Part shown: in pieces, positions 225 through 10,190 of the stretch
How the letters are laid out: each line of letters begins with the position of its first letter
How positions within the stretch are numbered: the stretch's first letter is position 1
DNA from: Verrucomicrobiia bacterium
GTDB lineage: Bacteria > Verrucomicrobiota > Verrucomicrobiia > Limisphaerales > JAEYXS01
Length of the DNA stretch: 64,000 nt
Reading direction: 5' to 3'
NCBI GenBank assembly: GCA_036405135.1
Contig: DASWYF010000020.1
Coordinates: 1-64,000 of the forward strand
Program-made: the position numbers and the translations under genes
The notes under the pieces: model-generated
Told to the model about the DNA's origin: nothing
The model's database searches: none
The model's input: only the letters and a program-made list of their open reading frames with translations

Positions 225-251
225 TCAAGTCTTCCGCCACCCTGCCGATAA
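225..251 (+). promoter_or_regulatory. Sigma-28 (FliA)-type promoter of flagellin gene 1
   Basis: The sequence reads TCAAGTCT, then 11 bases, then GCCGATAA. The enterobacterial sigma-28 consensus is TAAAGTTT-N11-GCCGATAA, so the -10 matches at all 8 positions and the -35 at 6 of 8, with exact spacing. Transcription would begin near 257-259, at the first base-paired leader hairpin. A flgM-like gene at 13463 supports sigma-28 control. No fliA gene is in the window. Confidence 0.8.
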
Positions 252-397
252 CCCTCGTGTCGCAAGACACTGGCGGCCGACGGCCTGAAACAGCCGGCGG
301 GGAAAATGGTGGCAGCCTCTGTAAAAGAGCCACCCGCAGCATGGACGCTGCGATCAAATAAAGTCCCCGTATTCCGGGGCAACTCACGGATAGAGTT
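252..397 (+). ncRNA. Structured flagellin mRNA leader, copy 1
   Basis: The leader folds into a series of hairpins that align with the leader at 9240-9386. In order these are: GTGTC-GCAA-GACAC (257-270, GNRA loop); a GC-rich hairpin around 272-284 whose loop can pair with CAGCCGGC at 291-298; GGTGGC/GCCACC (308-313/329-334) whose loop CCTC (316-319) can pair with GGGG at 299-302; CGCAGC-ATGGAC-GCTGCG (335-352); a CCCCG/CGGGG hairpin near 365-379; and AACTC-ACGGATA-GAGTT (381-397), directly abutting the ATG. Two apical loops carry A[U/C]GGA, the core of CsrA/RsmA binding sites, and the second holds the ribosome-binding position. Pairing and covariation are seen in sequence. CsrA binding is inferred. 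Confidence 0.7.
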
Positions 398-1452: not shown

Positions 1453-1588
1453 ATGGCACATTCTTCCTCCCGCCCCCTCTCCACCCGGAACTTTTTGCCG
1501 CCACACCTCCTCTTTCATCCCTAAACCCCTGCAATTAGGCATCTTTAGCCGGTTGGCATCGTCGTTGCTAAGCAACCGCCGCAATCCC

Positions 1589-4500
1589 ATGACGGGATTT
1601 GCCGCCTATACGACCATGAGCCAAAAGATAGATGCCGCCAGCCAGACAGGATTGTCCACCCGCGCCCTTCATGTTCCCACCTGGTTGTCCGGGACGGATC
1701 TATCCGCCCTCAAGCACGCCGAAGATATCCTGCAACGCATCCGTGGCCGCATCGCCATCGTCGGCAACGCCACCCCCAAGCGCGCCTACGGCAAGCTCAT
1801 CGACAGTTACGATTGCATCATCCGCTTCAACAACTTCCGCCTCGAAGGTTTCGCCGATCTCGTGGGCACCCGCACCGATCTTCGCTGCACCACGGGCTGG
1901 CATGACATCGAGCACCGCGAGGGCCTGATCGAGTTCAGCCCCTTCACCGCCGATTCCCGCGAAGCCAGCAACCTCGCCACTTTCAGCGCGGCCAATCACC
2001 GCCCTGTCCTCGCCGCTCGCACGGACATTCACCCCTTGGTGACTGAAACGCCCAATCCCTCCTGCGGCCTCGCACTCGTCCAACTGTTGAATTCCCTTGG
2101 CATAGAAGCCGACCTCTTCGGCTTCGATGGTTTCCAGACCAGCCACTACTGGAATGCTGGGCAAAAGGTCGAGACCTCGCACACGTTGCGCGAGATGGAC
2201 ATCGTCCTCAGCCGTCCGAACATAATTCTGATCGGCGACACTTACCCCTATGCCGAGCTTTACCAGTTCTGCCATGCCGAACACACGGACTACGATGAAA
2301 ACGTCGGTGCCGAACTCTTTCGCCGCCTGAACAAGAAGGTCACCGGTAAGAAGATTCTGGAATTCGGTGCAGGTAATGGCGGCCTCAGCGCGCAATTGGA
2401 GAAATGGGGCAATGAAGTCACCGCCTTTGAAGTCGCTACCAATGCTTTCGACAAGATCCAGTGCTCGCACAAGGTGAACGACTCCGCACTGGGCTTGCCT
2501 TACGTCACCGAGAAGCACGATCTCTTCGTCTCCGCTGATGTGCTCGAGCATCTCACCGAGAATGACATCCGCCTCGTGCTGCGCGAAGCCGCCCGCACGT
2601 GCAGTGAAATCTTCCTCGCAGTCTCCACACGCCCGAGCGGTTTGCTCGGACCCAAGGGCGAGAATCTGCATCTCACGGTGCGCCCGAATGAATGGTGGGT
2701 GCAACAGGTCGGCCGCTGGTTCGAGGTGAAAGCCTATCCCGGCTACGGCCAAGGCCAGCTCGTGCTCGAAGGCGCTCTGCATCGCCGCTCCGCTCTCGCC
2801 TACAATCTGTCATCTATTCCCAACGCGAGCGAAACCGTGAAATCCCTCGCCTTGCCGGAAACCTATAAATCCCGCCCAGTCCCTGAATATTTCGAAGACT
2901 CGGTCACGCAAGACACCGGCATCATCTGGCAGCCCGAGGTCTATCCTTACGCCGCCTGGCTGGCGAAAGAACTGGGCTGCCACCGCATCATCGATGTCGG
3001 CTGCGGGCGCGCGGGCAAACTCGTGAAGATGTCTGCGGAGTTCGCCATCACCGGCCTCGACTTCGGCAGCAACCTGGAATTCTGCCGCACGAATTATCCG
3101 CAAGGCCAATGGCGCGAGATCGATTTCGACCAAGCCTCCGATTGGGGTCTGCCCCTCGCCGACTTGAACGACGCTGTGATGATTTGCGCCGATGTCATCG
3201 AACATTTGCGCGATCCGCGCCCCTTGCTCGCGAACTTCCGCCGCTGCCTCGCACACTCGCCCGCGTTGATCATCTCCACCCCGGAACGCGAGCTCACTCG
3301 CGGTGTCCGCCATGCGGGTCCGCCAGATAATCCCGCGCACACGCGTGAGTGGTCGCTGGAAGAACTCGTGAAGTTGCTGCAAGCCGAAGGCTTCAGCGTG
3401 GACTACGCCGGTCTCACACCGAGCAATGACCGCGAACCCGAACATAAAACCATCCTCTGCGTCATCAGCTTGGCCGAAAACAATACGGCTGCACGCTGGT
3501 CCACGAAGCATAGTGAAAACGCCTTCGCACCCTTCGCCTATCGAATCGCTCTGCGCGAGCGTAACGGTGACACGTTCGCTGCGAACCCAGTTTTGCCTGC
3601 ACCAGCTACTCCCGGCGAACTGCTCGCCCAGGGCCGTATCGCTCTGCAGAAGCAAGACCTCGTCACGGCAAAAACCTCTCTCGAACAAGCCGTTCAATTC
3701 GGTATTAACGACAAAGACATCTGGACCGCACTCGCCGAATTGCGTCAACGCGCCGGTGAACGCCAGCCTGCGATTGAAGCTTGGCACGAAGCACTTTCCC
3801 TCGGCTGCAACGCCAAGGAAGCCTTCTCCGCTCTCGGCTATCTCCACACCGAGCTGGGTCATTTCGATGCCGCCATCACAGCCTATCTTAGCGCCTTGGA
3901 CGAAGAGCTGACGAATGTGCCGCTGCGCATTCGCCTCGGCTTCGTGCTGCTGCAAGCCGGTCGTCCTATGGATGCCCTGAATGTCTTCCAACAACTGCTC
4001 ACCGAAGAGCACGAAGAAGTCGAAGTCTTCTGGGGCATGGCCAAGTGCTGTGCCGCTCTTGCTGATTTCGCCACCGCCAAGACCGCGTGTGAATGCGTGC
4101 TCGCCGTGCAACCTGATCACACCGAAGCGGAACGTCTCTGGAATCGCCTGAGTGGAAATAGTTCGCAAGCCAAGCAACGCGAATCCGGTTGGTCCTTCTG
4201 CCTCATCACGAATGGTAAGCGCCCGCAAAAACTTCAAGCCGAGATCGATTCCATCCGCGCCCTGAACATTCCTGCGTATGAGATTCTCATCGCCGGTGAA
4301 GCTCCGGAAAATCTCGATGCCGGGGCGAAATTCATCCCTGCCGTCGATGCCGCTCGTAATGGCCGTCTCGGTGAGATGCGCAATCGCCTCACTGAACAAG
4401 CCCGCTTCGATCACCTCGTTGTCGCCGATGATGATCTTCTTTTTCACGGTGATTTCTACACCGGTTTGCAGCAATACGGTGATGCTTGGGATGTCCTCTG

Positions 4501-7500
4501 CGTGCGTTTTCTGAATCCCGATGGCACGCGCTTCTGGGATTGGGCCACACACGGCGGCATCCGCGGTCACAAGCTGCTCGCCTACACCGAGACGGATGAA
4601 CACGTCTATGTCACCGGCGGTCTGTGCGTGCTGAAAGCCTCCATCGCCGATCGTGTGCAGTGGGATGACGGCCGTGGTTTCTACCAAGGTGAAGATGTTG
4701 ATTTCTCTGCCCGTTTGAAAGCCGCTGGCATCACGCCGAAGTTCAATGAACTCAGCACCGTGACACATGACGACGACCGCTACACACAGCGTGAAAACGT
4801 CGTGGTGCGCGATTCACTCGAAGTAAAACGCTCCGTGCGCTGGTATGGCCCCATCTTCAACCCGAGCGGTTACGCGAGCGAAGTCATTAACTTCGTCGTG
4901 CCGCTCAAGGGCAAGCTCGATCTCGGCATCCATCACCAGAACAACCTCTACTCCGAGAAATTCGTCCAAGGTCTTGCTGCCGATGAGCGCGAAACGCTCT
5001 TCGCTCAACGCGACCGCTTCGCTGGCATCAAAGGTGGTATCGCCATTTCGCACAATCCGGCCAATGGTTTCCTGCGTCTGCCGGATGCCGACTACCAGAT
5101 CGGCCGCACGATGTTCGAGACAGACCGCATTCCCAAAGGCTGGACCCAAGCATGCAACCGCATGGACGAGATCTGGGTGCCGAGCCAGTTCAACGTGGAG
5201 ACCTTCGCGGCTTGCGGCGTGGAGCGCGACAAACTTGTGATCATGCCCGGTTCGGCGGATGAACATTTCTTCGACCCGAAGAAGCATCAGCCCTTGGCGC
5301 TAAAGAATCGTGCTGCCTACAATTTCCTCTCCATCTTCGAGTGGTCCTCGCGCAAAGGCTGGGATGTTCTGCTCGCCACCTATCTGCGCGAATTTTCGGC
5401 GGAAGATGATGTGTGCTTCCACCTCCGCACTTATCTCTTCAGCAAGCCGGATGAAGATCCGCGCACGGCGATCGAACGCCGCATCCGCGAATTCGCCGCC
5501 ACGCTGAACCTTGGCAACAAGCCGTTGCCTCGTATCGAGATCATTGCCGATCAAGTGCCGAGCGCGCAGTTGCCTGCATTCTATCTCGCTGCCGATTGCC
5601 TGCTCGCGCCGAGTCGCGGTGAAGGCTGGGGCCGCCCGCAGCATGAAGCCATGCTCATGGAGCGTCCGGTCATCGCAACGAACTGGAGCGCGAACACCGA
5701 GTTCATGGCGGATGAGTTCAGCTACCTCATCGACTACGAGATGGTCGAGGCGAAATTGCTGGAGCCGGAGCTGTGGCACTATCGCGGTCATCGCTGGGCA
5801 AACCCGAACGAGACGCATCTGCGCAAGCTGTTGCGTCACGTGCAGCAGAATCCCGAAGAAGGTCGCACCAAAGGTCGTCTTGCTCGTCAGCACATGGTCA
5901 AGCACTACGGTCGTGAAGTGGTGGCGAACAAAGTCCTGCGCCGCTTGAACGCGATCGAAAGCAAACTCTCCGCACCTTACCTGCCTGCTGTCACCGCACG
6001 GACATTGGCGGAAGCCAAAGAAACTAAGTTCCCACAACGCGAACCCGTGGTTTCCTGGGAAGGCACGTATCTCGATTACGGCAGCCTCTCGCACGTGAAC
6101 CGCGAATTCACTGCCAAGCTGGTCGAGCAAAAGAGCCTGCGTCTGCATCGCGTTTCGCGCCAAGCGAAGCCGACGGTCATTGCTCCCGAGTTCCAACGTC
6201 TCGCCAAGCAGATCGCACCGCAAGCGCCGCGCAATGTGGAGATCACCTTGCGCCATGCGTGGCCGCCGGATTTCTCTGCACCGGCTTCTGGCGCGCTAGT
6301 CGTCATGCAACCGTGGGAGTTTGGCGCTTTGCCTGCCGAATGGACGAAGGCCATGGAACGTGTGGATGAAGTGTGGGTGAACTCTCAATACGTCCGCCGC
6401 GTGTATCTCGATTCGGGTGTCGAACCCTCAAAGGTCAAATACCTGCCGCTAGGCATCAATCCGGATCGCTTTCGCCCGGATGTGAAACCGCTGCCGTTGA
6501 ACACACAGAAGAAGTTCAAGTTCCTCTTCGTCGGCGGCACGATCCATCGCAAAGGCCCGGATCTACTATTACAAGCCTACCTCAGCAAATTCACCGCTGC
6601 CGATGACGTTTGCCTCGTGATCAAAGATTTCGGCGGTCAATCCGTCTATGCTGGCCAGACGCTAGCGGAACAGATTCGCACCGCTCAAGCCACGCCGAAC
6701 GCGCCGGAGATTTTGTATCTCGATCAAGAGATGCCCGCAGAAGATTTGCCGCGTCTCTACGTAGCGTGCGATTGCCTTGTGCATCCTTATCGCGGCGAAG
6801 GTTTCGGTCTGCCCGTGCTAGAAGCGATGGCGTGCGCCTTGCCCGTCATCGTAACGGGTGGCGGCTCCACGGATGATTTCGCTTCCGCCGAAGTTACCTA
6901 CCGTATCCCGGCTGTGCGTGCCGCATTGGGTAATGAAGTTTCTGGCATGAAGCTGGTGCAGGGTGGCTGGTGGCTCGAACCCATATTCACCGATCTGCAG
7001 AAGACCATGCGTGAAGTATTCGAGAATCCGGCGGAAGCCAAGGCGCGTGGCGTGAAGGCGAGCGAGATTGCTCGGCGTGATTGGACATGGGCACAAAGCG
7101 TGAAAGCCGCTGAACTGCTCTTGCTCGATCTCGCCGGACGCCGTGAAGCGGCGCAACAGGCTGAGTTAGCCAAACGCTTCGCCAAAGCCCCCGCGATCCA
7201 TCTGCCCCGGGCTGCGTTGCTCGGCGATTTGCGCGGAGCGCGTGAAGCGATGGACAAGCGCGTGTTGCCTCTCGCTTGGGAACGCACGGTCAAGGCGTTG
7301 AATGAACGTCCCTTCCATCCTGAAGCGTGGTTGCTGCTTGCTGATGTCGCGCAAGCCATGGGTGACATCACCATGGCCATTCATTGCGCGCATGAAGCAA
7401 AGAAACTCACGCCTCGCTGGAAAGAAGTGCAGCGCAAGCTAGGTTCTCTGGATGAACGCAAGCAGGCCGGTTACTTCACCTGGCCCGCCTTGCCGGTGAA

Positions 7501-9133
7501 ACCCACTGAACCGCGTGTCTCGGTCTGCCTCATCACCAGGAACGAAGAGCGCTTTTTGAAGCAATGCCTCGAATCGGTGAAAGACCTCGCCTGGCAGATC
7601 GTGGTGATGGATACCGGCTCGACGGACAAGACAGTGGAGATCGCCAAGTCATTCGGTGCCGAGGTTTATCATACCACGTGGCAAAACGATTTCAGCGCCG
7701 CACGTAATGCCGCCATGGAATATGTGCGCGGTGATTGGGTGCTATCGCTAGATGCAGATGAGGAATTATTGCCCGAAGCCAAAGCGACATTGCGCAAGGA
7801 GATTCAGAGCGGTGATGCCATCGCGTATCGTCTGCCCATCATCGACATCGGTCGCGAAGACGAAGGCTGCAGCTACATCCCGCGCCTGTTCCGCAATGCG
7901 CACGGCCTCTTCTACGTGAGCCGCGTGCATGAGCAGATCTTCAGCAGCGTGGAAGTGCGCCGCCGCCAGTGGTCCATGGAGAACAAGCTCAGCACAGCTG
8001 CTATTCGCCACCATGGCTATCAGGAGCAGATCGTGCGCAATCGTGAGAAGAGCGCGCGCAACCTCAAACTGCTTGAACTCGCCCTCGAAGAATGGCCGAA
8101 CGAGCCGAATCTGCTCATGAGCATGGGCCTTGAACTGGCACGCATCGGCCAGATTGAAGACGGCCTGAGCTTTTACCTCGAAGCATTCCAAGTCCTGAGC
8201 CATAAGCCCGCTGATGAAGTGGCGCCGGAATTGCGCGAGACGTTGCTTTCGCAATTCACCACGCAACTCATGGCCACGCGCCAGTTCGGTGAGATCGTGC
8301 AGGTTCTCAATTCGCCGCTGGCCTTGAGCCAGACCGGATTGGTGGCATCGCACCATTTCACCATGGGGCTCGCATTCATGGAGCTGAAGCAACCGGCGCA
8401 GGCCATCGAGCAATTCCGCAAATGCCTCGCCAAACGCGAGCAACGTTCGCTCGCACCAGTAAATAAAGAGATCCACAAGGCGGGCCCGCATCACTGCCTC
8501 GCCAACTGCCTCGCACAACTCGGCAAGAAGGATGAAGCACGCGCGTCTTATGAACAGGCACGCAAGCTCGCCCCTGAATCTGTCGCCGTATTGTTTGACT
8601 ACGCTAAGTTTGAGCAGAGCTTGGGACATCCGGTGGAAGCGTTGCAGTTATTGCATGCTTTGATTTCGCTGGAGCCGCGACAAGAAGCCTTCTGGGGCTT
8701 GGGCGGTCAGATCGCCTTGAGCCGCGCAGACTTCTATGAGTTTGCTGCCGACTGGTCCGCAGAGGCGGTGAAGCATCATCCGAATTCACTACTACTTGCC
8801 CGTCAACACGCGGAGGCACTCACGCTCAACCGTAACCTCACTGAGGCGCTCACGTGGTGGAAGCAATCCCAAGGAGCCGCGCAACCCGCTGGCCGCGCTG
8901 CCATCGTGATCTGTGAACTTGCCGGGGGCATGCCGCTCACGCCTTTGGAGACGCGTCATCAGGAGCTTGTGAGTCGGGAATTCATCCAATGGTATCGCCG
9001 CCTGGTGGAAGCTCAGGCGCTCGACACCGTCGAGAAGATCAACCGCCGTTTGGAGCATTTGGAGACGGTTTTGCCGTCAGCCGCACAGGCACTCACTGCC
9101 GTTCTACAAGTGGCTGAAGTGACTTCTGCGTGA
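1589..9133 (+). CDS. Giant multi-domain glycosyltransferase/methyltransferase/TPR protein between flagellin genes
   Basis: This protein of about 2514 residues combines many modules. In order: a sialyltransferase-like GT29 segment (IVGN at about 57, IIRFNNF at about 77); two SAM-methyltransferase domains with glycine motifs LEFGAGNGG (about 253) and IDVGCGRAG (about 465); a TPR block (about 675-850); a GT-A-like glycosyltransferase with a DDD motif (about 944); two GT4/GT-B domains with EGWGRPQHEAM (about 1341) and EGFGLPVLEAM (about 1734); a GT2 domain (SVCLITRNEERF about 1974, LDADEE about 2052); and C-terminal TPRs (about 2155-2514). The upstream TTG at 1553 is a weaker start and ATG 1616 is also possible; none has a clear ribosome-binding site. 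There is no signal peptide, so it is probably cytoplasmic. Domain calls come from motifs. A role in flagellin glycosylation is inferred from its position between two flagellin genes. Confidence 0.85.
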   Translation: MTGFAAYTTMSQKIDAASQTGLSTRALHVPTWLSGTDLSALKHAEDILQRIRGRIAIVGNATPKRAYGKLIDSYDCIIRFNNFRLEGFADLVGTRTDLRCTTGWHDIEHREGLIEFSPFTADSREASNLATFSAANHRPVLAARTDIHPLVTETPNPSCGLALVQLLNSLGIEADLFGFDGFQTSHYWNAGQKVETSHTLREMDIVLSRPNIILIGDTYPYAELYQFCHAEHTDYDENVGAELFRRLNKKVTGKKILEFGAGNGGLSAQLEKWGNEVTAFEVATNAFDKIQCSHKVNDSALGLPYVTEKHDLFVSADVLEHLTENDIRLVLREAARTCSEIFLAVSTRPSGLLGPKGENLHLTVRPNEWWVQQVGRWFEVKAYPGYGQGQLVLEGALHRRSALAYNLSSIPNASETVKSLALPETYKSRPVPEYFEDSVTQDTGIIWQPEVYPYAAWLAKELGCHRIIDVGCGRAGKLVKMSAEFAITGLDFGSNLEFCRTNYPQGQWREIDFDQASDWGLPLADLNDAVMICADVIEHLRDPRPLLANFRRCLAHSPALIISTPERELTRGVRHAGPPDNPAHTREWSLEELVKLLQAEGFSVDYAGLTPSNDREPEHKTILCVISLAENNTAARWSTKHSENAFAPFAYRIALRERNGDTFAANPVLPAPATPGELLAQGRIALQKQDLVTAKTSLEQAVQFGINDKDIWTALAELRQRAGERQPAIEAWHEALSLGCNAKEAFSALGYLHTELGHFDAAITAYLSALDEELTNVPLRIRLGFVLLQAGRPMDALNVFQQLLTEEHEEVEVFWGMAKCCAALADFATAKTACECVLAVQPDHTEAERLWNRLSGNSSQAKQRESGWSFCLITNGKRPQKLQAEIDSIRALNIPAYEILIAGEAPENLDAGAKFIPAVDAARNGRLGEMRNRLTEQARFDHLVVADDDLLFHGDFYTGLQQYGDAWDVLCVRFLNPDGTRFWDWATHGGIRGHKLLAYTETDEHVYVTGGLCVLKASIADRVQWDDGRGFYQGEDVDFSARLKAAGITPKFNELSTVTHDDDRYTQRENVVVRDSLEVKRSVRWYGPIFNPSGYASEVINFVVPLKGKLDLGIHHQNNLYSEKFVQGLAADERETLFAQRDRFAGIKGGIAISHNPANGFLRLPDADYQIGRTMFETDRIPKGWTQACNRMDEIWVPSQFNVETFAACGVERDKLVIMPGSADEHFFDPKKHQPLALKNRAAYNFLSIFEWSSRKGWDVLLATYLREFSAEDDVCFHLRTYLFSKPDEDPRTAIERRIREFAATLNLGNKPLPRIEIIADQVPSAQLPAFYLAADCLLAPSRGEGWGRPQHEAMLMERPVIATNWSANTEFMADEFSYLIDYEMVEAKLLEPELWHYRGHRWANPNETHLRKLLRHVQQNPEEGRTKGRLARQHMVKHYGREVVANKVLRRLNAIESKLSAPYLPAVTARTLAEAKETKFPQREPVVSWEGTYLDYGSLSHVNREFTAKLVEQKSLRLHRVSRQAKPTVIAPEFQRLAKQIAPQAPRNVEITLRHAWPPDFSAPASGALVVMQPWEFGALPAEWTKAMERVDEVWVNSQYVRRVYLDSGVEPSKVKYLPLGINPDRFRPDVKPLPLNTQKKFKFLFVGGTIHRKGPDLLLQAYLSKFTAADDVCLVIKDFGGQSVYAGQTLAEQIRTAQATPNAPEILYLDQEMPAEDLPRLYVACDCLVHPYRGEGFGLPVLEAMACALPVIVTGGGSTDDFASAEVTYRIPAVRAALGNEVSGMKLVQGGWWLEPIFTDLQKTMREVFENPAEAKARGVKASEIARRDWTWAQSVKAAELLLLDLAGRREAAQQAELAKRFAKAPAIHLPRAALLGDLRGAREAMDKRVLPLAWERTVKALNERPFHPEAWLLLADVAQAMGDITMAIHCAHEAKKLTPRWKEVQRKLGSLDERKQAGYFTWPALPVKPTEPRVSVCLITRNEERFLKQCLESVKDLAWQIVVMDTGSTDKTVEIAKSFGAEVYHTTWQNDFSAARNAAMEYVRGDWVLSLDADEELLPEAKATLRKEIQSGDAIAYRLPIIDIGREDEGCSYIPRLFRNAHGLFYVSRVHEQIFSSVEVRRRQWSMENKLSTAAIRHHGYQEQIVRNREKSARNLKLLELALEEWPNEPNLLMSMGLELARIGQIEDGLSFYLEAFQVLSHKPADEVAPELRETLLSQFTTQLMATRQFGEIVQVLNSPLALSQTGLVASHHFTMGLAFMELKQPAQAIEQFRKCLAKREQRSLAPVNKEIHKAGPHHCLANCLAQLGKKDEARASYEQARKLAPESVAVLFDYAKFEQSLGHPVEALQLLHALISLEPRQEAFWGLGGQIALSRADFYEFAADWSAEAVKHHPNSLLLARQHAEALTLNRNLTEALTWWKQSQGAAQPAGRAAIVICELAGGMPLTPLETRHQELVSREFIQWYRRLVEAQALDTVEKINRRLEHLETVLPSAAQALTAVLQVAEVTSA

Positions 9134-9212: not shown

Positions 9213-9239
9213 TAAAGGAAATCCACAGGCATCCGATAC
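9213..9239 (+). promoter_or_regulatory. Sigma-28-type promoter of flagellin gene 2
   Basis: TAAAGGAA, an 11-base spacer, and TCCGATAC match the consensus TAAAGTTT-N11-GCCGATAA at 6 of 8 positions in each box, with exact spacing. It lies at the same distance from the conserved leader hairpin as the promoter of flagellin 1, which strengthens both calls. Confidence 0.75.
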
Positions 9240-9386
9240 CTTCAGTGTCGAAAGACAGGTCTCCGGCGACCACCAACAGCCGGGCAGGATAAAACGGTGA
9301 TGCCTGGAACAAGTTCACCGCACGGCATGGAAGCCGTGTAAACCCAAAAATCCCCGCAAGGGGTGACTCATGGAAGGAGTCTAGTT
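9240..9386 (+). ncRNA. Structured flagellin mRNA leader, copy 2
   Basis: The elements match copy 1 in order. They are TGTC-GAAA-GACA (9246-9257); GGTC-TCCGGC-GACC (9258-9271) whose loop CCGGC can pair with GCCGG (9279-9283); CGGTGA/TCACCG (9295-9300/9315-9320) whose loop CCTG (9303-9306) can pair with CAGG (9285-9288); CACGGC-ATGGAA-GCCGTG (9321-9338); CCCC-GCAA-GGGG (9352-9363); and GACTC-ATGGAAG-GAGTC (9365-9381). Most stems differ in sequence from copy 1 but keep pairing. The Shine-Dalgarno GGAAGGAG (9372-9379) lies inside the last hairpin, so folding or a bound protein would hide it. Confidence 0.72.
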
Positions 9387-10190
9387 ATGGTCATTAATAC
9401 CAACACATCGGCCCAAAACGGCGCACGCCTTTTGGGGGAATCCTCGGCAATGTTGTCCAAGTCGCTCGCGCGCTTGTCCTCCGGCTCAAAGATCGTTTCG
9501 CCGGAAGATGATGCCGCAGGCTTGGCGGTCTCTACGCGTTTCGACGCGCAGATCAACCGCATCTCCGCCGCGAACAGCAACGTCGGCAACGCCATCTCGT
9601 TCAATCAGACCCAGGACGGTTTCCTGCAAAAGGTGACCAAGGCCCTGGACCGTATGAGCGAGCTGTCTGTGCTGGCGCAGGACGTCACGAAGACGGACGC
9701 TGACCGGACCCTCTACAACTCCGAGTTCGCGACCCTCGGCGCTTACGTGAACAACGTGGCCACCAAGGACTTCAACGGCGTGAGCCTCTTCAGCGGCACG
9801 TCCCAGGCGGTGACGACCGACAGCGATGGCGGTACGTTCAGCATGAGCGGTGTGAACCTCGGCGCGACCACCTACACGACGGCCACGTCATCGACGGTCA
9901 CCTCCACCACGAACGCAGCCACCGCGCTGACGAACGTGAAGGCGGCGATCACACAGCTCGCCTCTGACCGCGCCACGATCGGCGCTAACATCACCCGCCT
10001 GAACTCCACGAGCGAACAGCTGGGTGTGCTGAAAGACAACATGTCCGCTGCCAACAGCCGCATCAAAGATGTGGATGTGGCGGAGGAAAGCACGAAGTTC
10101 GCACGCTACAACATCCTGGTCCAGGCAGGCACGGCGATGTTGGCGCAGGCCAACTCCACGCCTCAGTCTGCCCTCCGTCTCTTGGGTTAA
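9387..10190 (+). CDS. fliC: Flagellin 2
   Basis: This second filament subunit is 267 residues, exactly as long as flagellin 1 and nearly identical in the first 50 residues and in the C-terminal SRIKDVDVAEES..FARYNILVQ region. Differences cluster around residues 55-65 and in the Ser/Thr-rich middle. An in-frame GTG exists at 9363, but ATG 9387 is preferred because GGAAGGAG lies 7 bases upstream and because the product then begins MVINTN like its paralog. Two near-equal flagellins with separate promoters allow mixed or ordered filaments. It belongs to the late (sigma-28) class and is followed by fliD. Confidence 0.95.
   Translation: MVINTNTSAQNGARLLGESSAMLSKSLARLSSGSKIVSPEDDAAGLAVSTRFDAQINRISAANSNVGNAISFNQTQDGFLQKVTKALDRMSELSVLAQDVTKTDADRTLYNSEFATLGAYVNNVATKDFNGVSLFSGTSQAVTTDSDGGTFSMSGVNLGATTYTTATSSTVTSTTNAATALTNVKAAITQLASDRATIGANITRLNSTSEQLGVLKDNMSAANSRIKDVDVAEESTKFARYNILVQAGTAMLAQANSTPQSALRLLG

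Follow-up and report, generated by a model that had tools for sequence, protein, structure and literature searches.

The window analysed here (the whole stretch of DNA under study, 64,000 nucleotides long) is part of a 5.8-Mb draft genome and carries two flagellin genes, each encoding a protein of 267 amino acids with both the Pfam Flagellin_N and Flagellin_C domains. The first gene lies at 398-1201 and the second at 9387-10190, counted from the ATG at 9387; both genes, their promoters and their leader elements are on the forward (+) strand. A 2526-amino-acid protein is encoded between them (1553-9133), and it contains two methyltransferase regions, several glycosyltransferase domains (GT2, GT4 and GT29-like) and TPR repeats; a role for this protein in flagellin glycosylation is possible.

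Both flagellin genes are preceded by the same series of elements, namely a sigma-28 promoter, a 5' hairpin, two H-type pseudoknots, a hairpin with an CANGGANG loop, a GC-rich hairpin and a hairpin that combines ANGGA with the ribosome-binding site, followed by the ATG. In leader 1 the 5'-terminal hairpin P1 (GUGUC-GCAA-GACAC, 257-270) was recognized from its sequence, and the two pseudoknots that follow are supported by covariation: pseudoknot 1 (272-298) is built from helices S1 (272-274 with 283-285) and S2 (276-281 with 293-298, with one A-C mismatch at 280/294), and pseudoknot 2 (299-334) from S3 (299-302 with 316-319) and S4 (308-313 with 329-334). Hairpin P5 (335-352, CAUGGACG) has a loop, AUGGAC, with a near-invariant A and GGA, that provides the first CsrA-type site (ANGGA at 341-345); P6 (365-379, CCCC...GGGG) is supported by covariation, and the conserved hairpin P7 (381-397, loop ACGGAUA) places the second CsrA-type site (ACGGA at 386-390) over the ribosome-binding site. 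The elements of leader 2 span 9246-9381 in the same order: P1 (UGUC-GAAA-GACA, 9246-9257, again from sequence), pseudoknot 1 (9258-9284; S1 9258-9260 with 9269-9271, S2 9262-9267 with 9279-9284), pseudoknot 2 (9285-9320; S3 9285-9288 with 9303-9306, S4 9295-9300 with 9315-9320), the conserved P5 with site 1 (CAUGGAAG, 9321-9338; ANGGA at 9327-9331), the covarying P6 (CCCC-GCAA-GGGG, 9352-9363) and the conserved P7 (9365-9381), which holds site 2 (AUGGA at 9370-9374) together with the Shine-Dalgarno sequence AAGGAG.

The consensus for sigma-28 promoters is TAAAGTTT-N11-GCCGATAA. Leader 1 is preceded by a -35 element (TCAAGT, 225-230) and a -10 element (GCCGATAA, 244-251), and leader 2 by their counterparts TAAAGG (9213-9218) and TCCGATAC (9232-9239); both promoters were identified from their sequence and from a promoter survey of the leaders, in which a sigma-28-like promoter was found 5' of 92/109 leaders as compared with 1.2% of shuffled upstream regions. 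The spacing of these promoters is near-constant, being of the same length in 90 of the 92. The transcript of leader 1 is likely to begin at about 257-260, close to the first hairpin, although this is inferred from the position of the promoter and the start has not been mapped. Since the promoter occupies 225-230 and 244-251, bases 244-256 should fall outside the RNA. A sequence-only reading of the window had proposed the two leaders as one pseudoknotted RNA. Its list of elements and their order held in both leaders, all of them being found where it had placed them, and the stem changes that it quoted between the leaders and its covarying loop contact (GGGG with CCUC in one, CAGG with CCUG in the other) are correct. 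It had overlooked the sigma-28 promoter, and its starting point for the first leader, 244, has been corrected, as 244-251 is the -10 element.

Searches with a covariance model trained on 35 leaders showed that both flagellin leaders of the window (244-397 and 9240-9386) are members of one RNA family, with scores of 92 and 102 bits. The element was detected in 134 of the 293 Limisphaerales genomes searched (E ≤ 0.01, the weakest matches being near noise), and no convincing match was obtained with the model outside this order in a set of 388 genomes from across the phylum; flagellin matches were found in 46 of the 388, the window's own genome not being counted. Where the matches carry names these are mostly Limisphaerales, or Verrucomicrobia subdivision 3, and include Limisphaera, alongside some metagenome bins that are labelled otherwise. 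The same leader is visible by eye 5' of most flagellin genes in relatives at the level of the order, and flagellin genes that lie directly 3' of csrA do not have it. Three matches were rejected: two marginal ones outside Limisphaerales (L156 and L157), one of which precedes a tRNA-like sequence whilst the other lies within a peptidase-like gene, and a weak third match in the window's own genome (C31:76411, 17.9 bits), in or beside an unrelated open reading frame.

Neither leader corresponds to an RNA family listed in Rfam 15. No match to Rfam 15 was found in the window at the family gathering scores, and permissive thresholds (E up to 5) yielded nothing meaningful for either leader; the permissive matches to snoR71, PyrR (which is the preceding terminator) and SAM-III were judged to be due to chance. 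A search of the open-licence literature found no Verrucomicrobiota flagellin leader RNA, and candidate-RNA motifs outside Rfam are not excluded; no report of CsrA-FliW control in Verrucomicrobiota was found in the same literature. The two leaders are best explained as copies of a cis-regulatory RNA, approximately 130-140 nt long, that has not been listed before; this adds a large and strongly covarying structured RNA family that is absent from Rfam 15. The RNA itself is new to the libraries searched, and its mode of action is probably one that is already known.

The flagellin leaders have a conserved fold that goes far beyond chance. In an alignment of 118 covariance-model matches (112 distinct sequences) 93.0% of cells pair; shuffling lowers this to 79.5%, and sliding the partners to 56% or less. 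At 30 of the 35 pairs both partners have changed, and the covariation score of 0.423 stands against 0.185 for shuffles and at most 0.096 for the slid controls, with 0/500 shuffles reaching the observed covariation. A MAFFT alignment of 35 sequences, made without any fitting of structure, retained changes on both sides at 27 of the 35 pairs. When a tree-based null was limited to the 35 proposed pairs, 23 were significant (own script; the null is heavy-tailed), including the pseudoknot pairs 3-12, 28-48 and 29-47; applied to all pairs, the same test passes a single pair at E ≤ 0.05, owing to the heavy tail of its null. The model that was used for alignment did not include helices S1 and S3. The outer pairs of S3 nevertheless vary among G-C, A-U, C-G and U-A, and the third pair of S1 among C-G, U-G and U-A, with C-G replaced by U-A in 13 sequences. 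Covariation is seen at all 6 pairs of S2, all 7 pairs of S4 and all 4 pairs of P6, and the stem of P7 is 95% paired and too invariant for significant covariation pair by pair. Folding of single sequences gave mixed structures with energies that are only weakly unusual (z of -2.3 and -1.3), and it is therefore the comparative evidence that decides the fold.

The unpaired bases that are most strongly conserved identify the probable ligand of the two loops. CsrA/RsmE reads an ANGGAN hexaloop in which it contacts the A and the GGA, the N being variable (PMC7652899), and the leader loops fit this CsrA consensus, CANGGANG, with N free. Across 110 distinct leaders unpaired conservation of approximately 2 bits is found at the A and the GGA of the two loops, and the intervening N takes all four bases. 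Site 1 reads C110 A109 N(A30 C11 G33 T33) G109 G109 A110 N G110, its closing C-G pair being nearly invariant, and site 2 reads A110 N G110 G110 A110. The two ANGGA sites are present in 104/110 and 110/110 aligned leaders respectively, approximately 41 nt apart, and site 2 is always on the ribosome-binding site: in leader 1 ACGGA lies 7 nt 5' of the ATG, and in leader 2 the loop AUGGAAG runs into AAGGAG approximately 7 nt 5' of the ATG. The stem of the second hairpin differs in some families (GACAAAAGGAAUUGUC) with ANGGA retained, and L062 and L075 are among the few leaders with the second ANGGA but without the hairpin. Two hairpin-borne ANGGA motifs near the start codon were found for 31 of the 39 flagellin genes unlinked to csrA, as compared with 0.05% of shuffles, and only 1 of the 20 csrA-linked flagellin genes has any hairpin-borne site. 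A model of the two-hairpin CsrA part also gave 21 weak matches (21-26 bits) in one genome, G048, where approximately 20 copies of a repeat of about 49 nt are spread over many contigs (for example G048:C95:17851-17899); this short repeat was judged to be probably unrelated.

The proteins that such control would require are encoded in the same genome, where fliW, csrA and a third flagellin gene (L312) stand in a row (G000:C48:294082-295174). The CsrA protein (PF02599, 75.8 bits, at G000:C48) retains the RNA-binding residues L4 and R44, and the gene directly upstream of csrA encodes FliW (PF02623, 115.4 bits). Amongst genomes that bear the RNA, csrA is present in 33/34 and fliW in 34/34, as compared with 10/63 and 9/63 of the others; in the single RNA-bearing genome without csrA, the contig breaks off at fliW, just where csrA would be expected. 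This co-occurrence is partly due to motility as such. The fliW-csrA-flagellin arrangement is common in Limisphaerales. The third flagellin gene has an A-rich leader with no evident Shine-Dalgarno sequence or ANGGA hairpin, and for this reason it may possibly escape CsrA.

The sequence-only reading had proposed CsrA control of the two flagellins, and this is supported by the loop consensus, the covariation and the presence of csrA and fliW, with binding itself remaining inferred. It had named observations that would refute it, and every one that could be tested computationally was passed: strong covariation was found, the same fold precedes most other flagellin genes of the lineage, and csrA and fliW are both present in the genome, adjoining the third flagellin gene. 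It had also known of no named flagellin leader RNA of this form and had ruled out the GEMM aptamer, which stands in that there is no Rfam match.

It is very likely that CsrA represses flagellin translation through both loops and that FliW relieves this repression; binding, repression and relief are all inferred, by analogy with the hag and flaA leaders of other bacteria. In the proposed mechanism, sigma-28 RNA polymerase would transcribe the leader together with the flagellin gene, and one CsrA dimer would bridge the two hairpin loops, such that CsrA on the second loop would cover the ribosome-binding site, ribosomes would be excluded and flagellin would not be made. Once the hook is complete and flagellin leaves the cell, FliW would be freed to remove CsrA, and translation would start. 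The 5' hairpin and the double pseudoknot most likely serve as a rigid module at the 5' end, which would protect the message while presenting the first of the CsrA hairpins; this is the least certain step. The CsrA model offers no explanation for the two pseudoknots in the leader.

Among the closest known systems is the Campylobacter jejuni flaA leader, where footprinting, mutants and translation assays have demonstrated the action of CsrA (PMC4894983). It likewise has two ANGGA-loop hairpins, the second over the ribosome-binding site, and a sigma-28 promoter; csrA and fliW are present and a CsrB-type sRNA is not needed (PMC4894983). The flaA leader is only 45 nt long, its sites are separated by 21 nt and no pseudoknots have been reported in it (PMC4894983), whereas the Limisphaerales leader is approximately 140 nt long. 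Its sites are separated by about 41 nt and by an additional hairpin, and they are preceded by a 5' module made up of one hairpin and two pseudoknots. The Bacillus subtilis hag leader is similar in having two CsrA sites 5' of flagellin, one of which is on the Shine-Dalgarno sequence, with FliW acting to antagonize CsrA, a mode of action that is established experimentally (PMC7652899); it is not known to have a comparable pseudoknot domain. The circuit of CsrA, FliW and flagellin, known in detail from Bacillus and Campylobacter, is extended by sequence evidence to Verrucomicrobiota. Termite-flg and Flg-Rhizobiales are flagellin-associated leader motifs, and TwoAYGGAY is named for its two AYGGAY loops (listed in PMC2864571); neither leader matches any of the three in Rfam 15, and all come from other taxa. 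The GEMM c-di-GMP riboswitches are likewise motility-linked leader RNAs, but their fold differs and they gave no Rfam match. Limisphaera is a cultured, motile genus of Limisphaerales (PMC7193930), which makes the function of the leader testable.

Among the alternatives, the most probable is that the leader is a stability or sponge element: the hairpin and pseudoknots would mainly shield an abundant message from 5'-dependent decay, and flagellin mRNA, through its paired ANGGA loops, would titrate CsrA away from other flagellar messages. This remains possible: the first hairpin is at the predicted 5' end, the C. jejuni flaA mRNA has been shown by experiment to titrate CsrA (PMC4894983), and having several leader copies in one genome increases the dose of sites. 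Against it, site 2 is always on the ribosome-binding site, which is expected for repression and superfluous for a sponge. This reading is compatible with CsrA repression rather than opposed to it.

A second alternative, that the leader is a riboswitch with CsrA as its output, the double pseudoknot altering access to the CsrA and ribosome sites upon binding c-di-GMP or another small molecule, is considered unlikely. Pseudoknots with A-rich loops are frequent in aptamers and c-di-GMP is the usual motility signal, and the module is kept across approximately 60 genera of the order. On the other hand, no Rfam riboswitch was matched even at permissive thresholds, conservation at the module's unpaired positions is only moderate and lies below that of the CsrA contacts, and in the 97 genomes searched with the module alone it was found only at flagellin leaders, whereas an aptamer of the riboswitch type commonly serves several genes. 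Ligand binding by the pseudoknots, which the sequence-only reading had offered as its alternative, is hence disfavoured and not excluded. The remaining possibility, that the two leaders are alike merely through duplication of the flagellin gene or by chance and that the helices are meaningless, has in its favour that the genes are paralogues with nearly identical starts to their coding regions, but it is all but excluded by compensatory changes at 30/35 pairs amongst 112 distinct sequences, by the lower values in shuffled and slid controls, and by the occurrence of the element in 134/293 genomes of the order.

Under the preferred reading of CsrA repression, the pseudoknots are best regarded as an added module with a role in the flagellin leader that is probably structural, to which the evidence points without proving it. 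In 97 genomes, a model of the module alone matched nothing but flagellin leaders or the contig ends of such leaders, together with one tandem copy inside a leader, and the strong matches of a model restricted to the CsrA part were at these same flagellin sites. No strictly conserved unpaired residues of the kind that would form a pocket were found in the pseudoknots, where conservation does not exceed 1.5 bits (A19 at 1.5, G44 at 1.3 and A18 at 1.2, against 1.9-2.0 for the CsrA contacts). It is because the module is confined to flagellins and its unpaired bases are modestly conserved that a structural role is favoured over a free-standing aptamer. A bolder reading, in which the double pseudoknot is a sensor, for a small molecule or for a protein such as FliW, flagellin or a ribosomal factor, that gates the access of CsrA to the adjoining hairpin, appears improbable; were it true, flagellin output would integrate two signals on one leader, and the one-pseudoknot leader of a sister order, described below, would be the same device.

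Three individual loci show how the element varies. At L218 (G047:C60:16624-16683) pseudoknot 1 is tandemly duplicated 5' of a complete leader. At L138 (G250:C163:17883-17994, minus strand) a leader with a sigma-28 promoter, pseudoknot 1 and both ANGGA hairpins, and without P6, precedes a CheY-like response regulator rather than a flagellin, so that the element appears to be transferable to another gene. At L144 (G095:C3:44169-44293) the leader lies between two flagellin genes, 5' of an open reading frame (MVTTTS...) without similarity to flagellin, which may conceivably be a decayed flagellin.

Comparable leaders are found in other orders of the phylum: of 20 flagellin leaders there, 18 carry ANGGA in a hairpin, in most cases some 33 nt 5' of the start codon, and the ribosome-binding site typically reads AAGGA. 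Loci L292-L309, mainly of family f66 (which we take to be probably Opitutaceae), represent a second and separate pseudoknotted CsrA leader RNA, with a hairpin, an H-type pseudoknot, an ANGGA hairpin and AAGGA at the ribosome-binding site; 15 of the other-order leaders, nearly all from this one family, share a single H-type pseudoknot directly 5' of the CsrA hairpin, and 17 of the 22 pairs of this pseudoknotted leader show changes on both sides. The f66 leader is not detected by the Limisphaerales covariance model and has no Rfam match. It resembles that of Limisphaerales in its ANGGA hairpin and in the covarying pseudoknot immediately 5' of it, and differs in having only one pseudoknot, no P6 and a second site that is outside a hairpin. 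As CsrA leaders are present in other orders, the two-site CsrA leader seems to be of early origin within the phylum, and the occurrence of pseudoknots directly 5' of the CsrA hairpin in at least two orders indicates that CsrA target leaders are able to acquire elaborate tertiary folds.
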